From Armatimonadota bacterium (lineage in GTDB: Bacteria; Armatimonadota; HRBIN16), in NCBI GenBank assembly GCA_026003175.1, contig BPGT01000001.1:1464839-1528838 (forward strand): a stretch of 64,000 nucleotides of DNA. The letters are read 5' to 3'. Of the stretch, positions 30,356 to 56,323 are shown piece by piece. The stretch's first letter is position 1; every line of letters begins with the position of its first letter. Under the pieces are notes generated by a model, which did no database searches, was not told the origin of the DNA, and was given only the letters and a program-made list of their open reading frames with translations. The position numbers and the translations under genes were made by a program.

Positions 30356-31111
30356 ATGGCACAGCCGACCCGCGCTGAAGTGATTGAGGCGGAGTTGCAA
30401 CGCATTATCCCCATTGTTATCGTGGGGATAGTGGTGCTTGCGTTCGGGTTGTTTTTGCTATACCTGTCTACCATTGCCGCGTGGATGCCGTTTATTATCG
30501 GGGTGATTGTCACTCTGGCTGGCGTGGGCATTGCGGGATACGGCGGGTGGCAGTATATGCAGTTGAATAACCTGCCTACCTACAGGGCGATATGCCCTTA
30601 CTGCGAGCAGCCGACGTTATTCCTCGCTCCCCCGACGGAGGATTACTCCTGTGAACACTGCCATCGGATAGTAGCCATCGAGGGAGGTCAGGTAGTACCT
30701 CCGCTGGTACTGGTATGTCGACATTGTGGTACGCCGCAGAAGGTGTCGCCCCGTGCAAAGATGTTCATCTGCGACAACTGTAACGGGCAGAACGACCTCA
30801 AGCCCGCCAGACCCGGTGTGGCGGCGGCTCCTGTGGGGGCAGCGGAAGAGAGTCTTGAGTATACCACTTACGACCTTGTGCTGGTGGACGCCGGGCACAA
30901 CACAGAGGAAGTACTGGAGATACTCTGTACCATTCTGGCTGCGCCTCGCGACCACTGTCGAGGCATTCTCAAGGACCTGCCGATGGTGATTCTGGTAGAC
31001 CTGCCCCGGCGCAAGGCGGATTCCTATCGCCGGATGCTGCGCGAAGCGGGTGCCACTGCTGAGGTGCATCCTACCGGACAGTATCGCCCGCCCGCAAAGC
31101 AGGGTATTTAA
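30356..31111 (+). CDS. Membrane protein with zinc ribbons and a ribosomal L7/L12 C-terminal-like domain
   Basis: A 251-residue protein. Two TM helices (about 18-40 and 44-65) are followed by two four-Cys zinc ribbons (CPYC...CEHC and CRHC...CDNC, about residues 80-145) and a C-terminal alpha/beta domain, YDLVLVDAGHNTEEVLEILCTIL ... GILKDLPMVILVDLPRRKADSYRRMLREAGATAEV. That order matches the L7/L12 C-terminal fold (lysine-rich helix partly lost; the loop after ILKD is shortened). It is not the ribosomal stalk protein. The ATG follows AAGGGGGTC. It stands alone between two terminators. Confidence 0.7.
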   Translation: MAQPTRAEVIEAELQRIIPIVIVGIVVLAFGLFLLYLSTIAAWMPFIIGVIVTLAGVGIAGYGGWQYMQLNNLPTYRAICPYCEQPTLFLAPPTEDYSCEHCHRIVAIEGGQVVPPLVLVCRHCGTPQKVSPRAKMFICDNCNGQNDLKPARPGVAAAPVGAAEESLEYTTYDLVLVDAGHNTEEVLEILCTILAAPRDHCRGILKDLPMVILVDLPRRKADSYRRMLREAGATAEVHPTGQYRPPAKQGI

Positions 31112-31119
31112 CAAAAAAG

Positions 31120-31140
31120 CCCCCCTTCTATAAAGGGGGG
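31120..31140. terminator. Bidirectional intrinsic terminator
   Basis: Stem CCCCCCTT (31120-31127) / AAGGGGGG (31133-31140). On the minus strand the hairpin is followed by CTTTTTT, so it ends the prepilin transcript; it also closes the plus-strand gene before it. Confidence 0.85.
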
Positions 31141-31183: not shown

Positions 31184-31933
31184 TTAATCGCGGGTGAAGT
31201 GAGCGTCGCTCATCTGCGTCTGGCTCATGGGCTTCACGTGACCATCGCAGAAGACGATGTTCGCGAACCCGCGATGTTTTACCACCTGATTGCTGGCGTC
31301 TACATCCTTGCGGTTGTCGATGTGACGGAAATCCACCGTGGGGTTACCCCACCACATGGATGGCGGGTCAATGTAAGGTGTTTCCCACATTGTGCCGTCG
31401 CCGCCGTACCAGGGCACATTGTAGAAACCGCTATCGGCGAACATTACCTTTTCCGCAGGACGCGACAGCGCGGATTCGGACGCAGGGTTGCGCAGGTTGG
31501 GCCAGGTGCTCCAGTCGAAGGTGACGTAGATATCCGAGCCGATGTAGCCCCAGTTATAGCCGTAACCGTTGCCATCGCCGAAACGGGTACGCCCACCCCA
31601 GCTGGGACAACGCTGAATCTGCCCGTTTTTCATGTAGGGATAGAGCAGGCTCTGCGTTTTATCCCACACATTCGTCTGCGTTTCCTTGCCGAACCAGCAC
31701 TGCCTCAGAGAACCGCTGTAGGCGTACTGAGCGATTGGGTAGGTTTCATCGTAATCCTGAAGGTACATCAGCGTTGCCAGTCCCAGCTGCTTCAGGTTGC
31801 TCTGGCAGCTTGCCTGGCGGGCTTTCTCGCGCGCCTGCGCGAAGACGGGGAAGAGAATGGCTGCCAGTATCGCGATAATCGCGATAACTACCAGCAGCTC
31901 GATGAGCGTGAAAGCGTTACGTTGACGGGACAT
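31184..31933 (-). CDS. DUF1559-type prepilin (type II/IV pilin-like)
   Basis: A 249-residue pseudopilin-like protein. The prepilin peptidase site and hydrophobic helix open the protein: [16 protein letters not shown]... with Ala rather than Gly before the Phe, then [26 protein letters not shown]. The globular part is Tyr/Trp/Gly-rich and the C-terminus has the FCDGHVKPM motif (H-x-G-D-G-type end of DUF1559 proteins). The ATG at 31933 lies behind AAGGAGG. The leader is a cobalamin riboswitch with a terminator (see 32015-32303), and the gene is followed by an intrinsic terminator, so it is a single-gene unit. Confidence 0.9.
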
Positions 31934-32014
31934 GTTTCCCTCCTTACCAAAAAATTCACCGCTCACGACGCGCGGAGGGAGACGTCGGAAGCGGTGTGTG
32001 CTTTCGGCGCGTTA

Positions 32015-32046
32015 ACAAAAAACCTGATGCCCTTCCGCACCAGGTT
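32015..32046 (-). terminator. Riboswitch expression-platform terminator
   Basis: On the minus strand AACCTGGTGC, loop GGAAGG, GCATCAGGTT (one G-T wobble in a 10-bp stem) followed by six T. It lies directly after the cobalamin aptamer and about 80 bases before the prepilin start. Confidence 0.88.
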
Positions 32047-32049
32047 GGT

Positions 32050-32262
32050 TGAAACGCGCCCGATTCACCTTCGGGTCACGTCCCCCCTCCCTCCGCGAAG
32101 GGGTGCCCTGCGAATGTGCAGGGCGTGACCAGCCGTCGCCGGGCATTCGGGCTCGCCTCCCAATGGGAGACACACCGCAGCGGGCCTGCGCCGGATTCTC
32201 ACCGGACTTCCCCCGATATTTCAGCCTCAATGCGATTGAGGCGCAGACGGCTTACCCTTATG
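32050..32262 (-). promoter_or_regulatory. Cobalamin (B12) riboswitch aptamer
   Basis: Read on the minus strand, the leader contains the conserved cobalamin core: GGGGGAAGTCCGGTGAGAAT at about 32195-32214 (the GGGAA-N3-GGTG-A-CC pattern) followed by CGGCGCAGGCCCGCTGCGG (the CCCGC box), then GCGAGCCCGAATGCCCGGCGAC with the A/GGC pieces of the second half and a long TCACG...CGTGA hairpin. These are the RF00174 landmarks in the right order. A terminator follows. It should switch expression of the downstream prepilin gene off when adenosyl- or other cobalamin is bound. Confidence 0.85.
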
Positions 32263-32274
32263 TGATTTGGCAAT

Positions 32275-32303
32275 ACTATATCACAGCCGCGCGGGGCTGT
32301 CAA
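32275..32303 (-). promoter_or_regulatory. Strong sigma-70-type promoter of the riboswitch-prepilin transcript
   Basis: On the minus strand a consensus TTGACA (32298-32303), a 17-base spacer and TATAGT (32275-32280), ideally placed for a transcript that begins just before the aptamer. Confidence 0.88.
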
Positions 32304-55729: not shown

Positions 55730-56323
55730 ATGAACCACCGGACAATTGCTTTTACTCTGGTGGAGCTGCTCGTTGTCATCGCCATTATCGCTTTGCTGGC
55801 GGCGATACTGTTCCCCGTGTTCGCGCAGGTACGGGCGAACGCACGACGTGCTTCCTGCATGAGCCAGCTGCGCCAGATAGGTATGGCAGCGCGCATGTAC
55901 CTGCAGGACTATGACGCCATACCACCCCGATTGAGCGCACTGTATCCCACTTACCAGCCCTCACTGCAACTGTTCATCTGCCCATCCGACTCGCAGAAGG
56001 GACAACATCCGGGCAACCCGCGCCTTGAGGGCAACCTGTACCTGCCGACCGGGGTCAGCTACGACTACATTCCCAACTGGGGCATTGCACATGAGCTGGG
56101 CTGGTGGCAACCGTTCCCCAATTACGGCGAGGGCAAATGGGGCGAGCAGACACCGCTGGTAGACTGCAACTGGCACTGGGCGACCTACTTCAAACTGGAA
56201 AACCGTCGCGACACCCCGCCGTCGGGCGCTAGAGGGTGGGTGCTGGTATTGCTGCAATCTGGTACGGTGAAAACCGTGCATCTGTCGATCTACCCAGACA
56301 GGTTCAGCCCGGATGGAGGTTAG
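55730..56323 (+). CDS. Prepilin-like protein (type II/IV pilin)
   Basis: A 197-residue pseudopilin-like protein. [21 protein letters not shown] with [20 protein letters not shown] is the processed N-terminal helix; Ala precedes the cleavage point as in the prepilin at 31184. The globular part has [12 protein letters not shown] and ends with [19 protein letters not shown]. The ATG at 55730 follows CAGGAGCAAG. It is a second, shorter relative without the long DUF1559 C-terminus. No assembly ATPase or peptidase gene is nearby, so the pilus or secretion machinery must be encoded elsewhere. Confidence 0.85.

Follow-up and report, generated by a model that had tools for sequence, protein, structure and literature searches.

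A cobalamin riboswitch paired with a dedicated clade of DUF1559 prepilins in Armatimonadota

The riboswitch-prepilin transcription unit

The window analysed here is a stretch of 64,000 nucleotides from an Armatimonadota genome (assembly GCA_026003175.1, contig BPGT01000001.1, positions 1,464,839 to 1,528,838). Its minus strand carries a leader RNA with a cobalamin riboswitch, followed by a single gene for a DUF1559 prepilin and an intrinsic terminator (Table 1). An earlier note, made from the sequence alone, had described a leader at 31934-32303 with a consensus promoter, an aptamer core and a terminator, and another terminator behind the prepilin. Each of these elements was recovered, and the span is correct, reaching from the promoter to the start codon. 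The promoter matches the sigma-70 consensus at 11 of 12 bases, with a 17-nt spacer and a TG-extended -10 element. The RF00174 search that the note had called for put the aptamer above the gathering score, with E-values of 7.5e-8 in the window and 1.2e-9 genome-wide, and in a covariance search of the whole 4.1 Mb genome this aptamer is the single match. The expression platform, with its terminator, sits between aptamer and gene and is conserved in the genus. A conserved hairpin (CCCCTTCGCGGAGGGAGGGG) stands in the place of P13/L13 in the regulatory domain; the CCCTTCGCG hairpin is kept in leaders of other families too and, judged from known cobalamin riboswitches, is probably the kissing-loop partner.

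Table 1. Features of the transcription unit (window coordinates)
Feature	Coordinates	Strand	Details
Promoter, sigma-70-type	32275..32303	-	TTGACA (32303-32298), N17, TATAGT (32280-32275), TG before -10
Cobalamin riboswitch aptamer, short type	32121..32263	-	RF00174 44.2 bits, gathering 31.5
Conserved hairpin, place of P13/L13	about 32084..32103	-	RNA fold
Intrinsic terminator of expression platform	32021..32046	-	10-bp stem, U-run, -15.6 kcal/mol
DUF1559 prepilin, 249 aa	31184..31933	-	MSRQRNA^FTLIELLVV...; Pfam N_methyl + DUF1559
Intrinsic terminator ending transcription unit	31120..31140	-	Behind the prepilin gene

The best start of the prepilin is the ATG at 31933, with AAGGAGG just upstream; the GTG at 31966 in the list of open reading frames represents a longer reading of the gene. 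The next gene (30356-31111) lies on the plus strand and is convergent. Together with the second terminator, this neighbour makes the unit read as monocistronic, so that continuation of the transcript into a B12 gene, which the note had named as a possible refutation, does not occur here. A second DUF1559 prepilin of the window starts at 55731 on the plus strand and has no such leader, since the Rfam scan of the window gives only one cobalamin match.

In the Pfam scan the prepilin matches DUF1559 (PF07596, 1.3e-12) and N_methyl (PF07963, 1.4e-8), both above their cut-offs (48.8 bits versus 23.3 and 34.4 versus 21.2); these are the only two domains, and DUF4465 is absent from the protein itself. 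The translation shows the cleavage site RNA^FTLIE with Glu5 and the H-X9-DG motif (His220 with Asp230-Gly231). The protein thus shares with the DUF1559/SBP_bac_10 (PF07596) prepilins the N-terminal methylation motif, the domain match and the H-X9-DG motif, but differs from the family at large in belonging to a dedicated clade with signature residues of its own and in being preceded by a cobalamin riboswitch. The AlphaFold2 model (mean pLDDT 84, pTM 0.80) has a long helix at the N-terminus and a C-terminal domain of mixed structure. Fold and solved-structure searches for a corrinoid-binding relative yielded nothing beyond the N-termini of pilins and weak matches to pilin folds.

Conservation of the pairing and the prepilin clade

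In each of the nine genus genomes with a riboswitch match, there is a single riboswitch with the prepilin behind it and a recognisable promoter upstream; a tenth genome of the genus (80% complete) gave no match. Eleven orthologues of the prepilin were found in genome_contigs (at least 54% identity) and all 11 lie in riboswitch loci; they score 539-1141 in the similarity search, while the next protein scores 189.

We ran R1, a covariance model for the core of the short aptamers, through 291 Armatimonadota genomes and retrieved 100 further loci. The prepilin is the first or second gene at 93 of 120 short-type loci, starting 34-370 nt behind the aptamer core, and at 18 of 30 long-type loci, which were chosen by RF00174 score and not by R1. 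Together, 111 of 150 loci (74%) in about 24 families have the prepilin, the base rate being about 2%. These percentages are not population estimates, since the loci are non-independent and the R1 set was ordered by its resemblance to the model. The counts also lean on metagenome-assembled genomes and, among the short-type loci, on aptamers resembling those in R1. The argument for the pairing rests on its spread over families and on the separate long-type sample. The earlier note had asked whether other prepilins carry the same leader. Within the genome it is no common property of prepilins: an aptamer-core scan of the 30 best of the 67 DUF1559 matches, with flanks, was positive only for this prepilin of the window. 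Across the phylum, a cobalamin riboswitch precedes the prepilin at the 111 loci.

The riboswitch-linked prepilins form a group of their own. A quick tree covered 45 short-type and 17 long-type linked prepilins together with 59 unlinked DUF1559 prepilins; a branch with a support of 99 separates all of the sampled linked proteins from the rest. A first tree with 165 rows needed two changes versus 55 in shuffles. Clade C, which had appeared as a separate lineage in the first tree, joined the others once long-type loci were added and long-branch paralogues were excluded. Trp80, Gly82, Gly95, Gly123, Tyr126, Tyr130, Phe165, Pro191-Ser192 and Asp243 (window numbering) are among the residues kept in the linked clade and not in other DUF1559 proteins; the window's own prepilin has a serine at position 95.

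DUF1559 genes are numerous in the genome (67 matches among an estimated 3,700 or so genes), and a riboswitch that is out of place or in decay could in principle have come to lie beside a member of so common a family by chance or artefact. The conservation of the pairing over about 24 families refutes this explanation, and the association of one prepilin clade with two aptamer types and different expression platforms speaks against it as well; we give it a negligible probability.

The expression platforms do vary. Of 31 clade-A leaders, 16 have a canonical terminator behind the aptamer, compared with 3% of shuffles; in clades B and C few leaders do. The target is thus constant although the platform is not, and our guess is that clades B and C may use translational control. 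Support for a competing antiterminator pairing came from some relatives (p = 0.01 in L158 and L162), and the genus of the window gave p = 0.57 within a span of 0.36-0.68, which lends the pairing no support there. The terminator and the uptake and salvage genes found alongside suggest that the riboswitch acts in the OFF direction.

Operon partners and B12 physiology

Most linked prepilins, including those of the window and its genus, stand alone with no B12 gene beside them. The description of the prepilin as lone in the earlier note is accurate for this genus but not for some relatives, in which corrinoid-related genes are partners, taken as co-transcribed from gaps and strand. Behind the prepilin lie cobA/btuR and cobU in L045 and BtuF-like proteins in L017, L019, L021, L158 and L211, and in L013 a PduO-like adenosyltransferase lies in front of it (the BtuF-like and PduO-like proteins were named from their translations). 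A DUF4465 protein comes next after the prepilin in L202, L206, L213 and L224 (1e-49 to 1e-56), with a PEP-CTERM match in three of the four, and that of L206 matches D5EK51 (9hmu) at 8e-31. DUF4465 proteins bind B12 (PMC13398666), and BtuJ1 and BtuJ2 of Bacteroides bind cobamides (PMC12751083).

Several other neighbours were observed. PEP-CTERM proteins with the motif WGYRWDGxxTGxDMLxAI recur behind the linked prepilin (L044, L154, L166, L176, L178, L195, L210 and L217), and a small, cysteine-rich BFD-like [2Fe-2S] protein of about 75 residues lies directly behind it in L140, L147, L170 and L198. At L139, L143, L179, L223 and L229, PEP-CTERM proteins beginning GYTPPTGY...VAVSPSGKLAVA take the place of the prepilin as the first gene; we considered this family as possible BtuG homologues and do not claim the assignment, as PDB searches gave no sequence support and no solved relative.

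The PEP-CTERM partners bear on one alternative, that of a corrinoid-regulated assembly or secretion component. The prepilin would then be a pseudopilin with no corrinoid binding of its own, through which B12-binding proteins of the surface (DUF4465 and further PEP-CTERM proteins) are exported or positioned. Pilin-like proteins are typical secretion pseudopilins, the prepilin has weak GspG/GspH matches and, in some lineages, it precedes PEP-CTERM proteins, DUF4465 included. However, it occurs without such a partner in the genus of the window and at most loci, and the large C-terminal domain of the subfamily is specifically conserved. We regard this explanation as unlikely.

Riboswitch loci without the prepilin drive BtuF, BtuC, class I ribonucleotide reductase (NrdAB), corrinoid synthesis genes or PEP-CTERM surface proteins (some named from translations). 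A cobalamin riboswitch before class I ribonucleotide reductase, as found in L203, L212 and L231, is the classical arrangement for a B12-independent isozyme.

These targets have to be set against a second alternative, a response to B12 starvation apart from uptake, such as adhesion to corrinoid-producing neighbours, twitching, biofilm formation or DNA uptake. The known roles of type IV pili agree with it, as do the several PilB-type ATPases and five secretins encoded in the genome. Against it stand the several lineages in which corrinoid salvage or BtuF genes share the operon of the prepilin, and the uptake, isozyme and synthesis genes behind the prepilin-less riboswitches; it seems to us quite improbable. 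The earlier note had also suggested B12-responsive surface structures, which in a non-uptake sense are an alternative reading.

The genome of the window encodes a MetH-type protein and a corrinoid methyltransferase protein, together with two BtuF-like proteins, one of which has a BtuC/FecCD permease just behind it (C3:185388-186326). Directly upstream of that BtuF-like protein and permease (C3:183364-186326; L264 and L245 of G000) lies a further DUF1559 prepilin, which falls outside the riboswitch clade; no riboswitch is present at this locus. CbiC was found in none of the 61 genomes searched, which makes de novo synthesis of the corrin ring unlikely in them and, given the corrinoid-dependent types of protein in the genome of the window, points to a need for uptake; a corrinoid synthesis operon is present in at least one other Armatimonadota genome (G103, L194). 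The BtuC/FecCD permease occurs in 59 of the 61 genomes.

In 13 near-complete genomes with a linked prepilin we found no match to the TonB plug domain; the FecCD permease is present in them, and the outer-surface step of import is thus unaccounted for there. The prepilin would be the obvious riboswitch-controlled candidate for this step. Many prepilin-bearing genomes, among them that of the window, do have a TonB receptor. The sole TonB receptor of the window's genome was rejected as a BtuB candidate, scoring 641 bits with TOL_0244 versus 99.8 with TonB-B12 (cut-off 599.7); it has no riboswitch, and no riboswitch-controlled TonB-dependent B12 receptor was found in this genome. In L037 (G006) a TonB receptor gene is divergent from the riboswitch-prepilin unit, an arrangement that the other members of the genus do not have.

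A proposed role in corrinoid acquisition

From the promoter, aptamer, terminator, prepilin, conservation, clade and operon links described above, we consider it probable, on sequence evidence, that the locus encodes a corrinoid-repressed, dedicated DUF1559 prepilin which serves B12 acquisition at the cell surface and possibly binds corrinoid itself. With corrinoid plentiful, the transcription-terminating riboswitch would hold the prepilin off, and with corrinoid scarce the prepilin would be made. It would then be processed by prepilin peptidase and assembled by the type IV pilus/type II secretion machinery of the genome; its large C-terminal domain would most likely bind corrinoid, which may be handed on toward the BtuF/BtuC importer. 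Acquiring external corrinoids at the cell surface would be the task of this prepilin subfamily throughout the phylum. A role in corrinoid capture, proposed in the earlier note, is the reading that phylum-wide conservation, a single DUF1559 clade and co-operonic B12 genes best support, and we infer it from these. In a broader and rather doubtful extension, a corrinoid-binding pilin would stand in for BtuB at the outer surface during B12 import in Armatimonadota lineages without a TonB-dependent receptor, and DUF1559 prepilins in general would be ligand-specific capture pilins, the first ligand of which is revealed by the riboswitch.

The type IV pili of DNA uptake (competence), in which a pilin catches a molecule outside and draws it to the cell, would be the closest working analogue of the proposed capture pilin. 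The analogy is one of general knowledge, and for the prepilin the ligand, the motor and a retraction role are putative. The leader resembles known cobalamin riboswitches (RF00174) in its aptamer core, its score above gathering and its terminator-type expression platform, but its target is a prepilin, whereas the targets named in the earlier note and in the literature consulted are synthesis, uptake and isozyme genes. BtuG, BtuH and BtuJ/DUF4465 of Bacteroides (PMC10404256, PMC8941943, PMC12751083, PMC13398666) are likewise riboswitch-controlled extracytoplasmic proteins of a B12 scavenging regulon, and in some Armatimonadota DUF4465 proteins share the operon of the prepilin. The Bacteroides proteins, however, are lipoproteins or have other folds and work with BtuB, whereas the protein described here is type IV pilin-like, often in a genome with no TonB plug domain. 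In the literature searched, which left most subscription papers outside, there was no report linking cobalamin riboswitches to pilins in this sense, nor one linking DUF1559 to cobalamin or Armatimonadetes to cobalamin riboswitches.

Riboswitch and prepilin each come from known families; what is new is their pairing, its phylum-wide conservation and the function proposed for it. The pairing adds a new target class to the cobalamin riboswitch and, for one branch of a large prepilin family without known function, offers a concrete hypothesis on the ligand. It suggests an unrecognised pilin-like part of the B12 scavenging machinery of Armatimonadota and points to a route of B12 acquisition in bacteria without TonB-dependent receptors.
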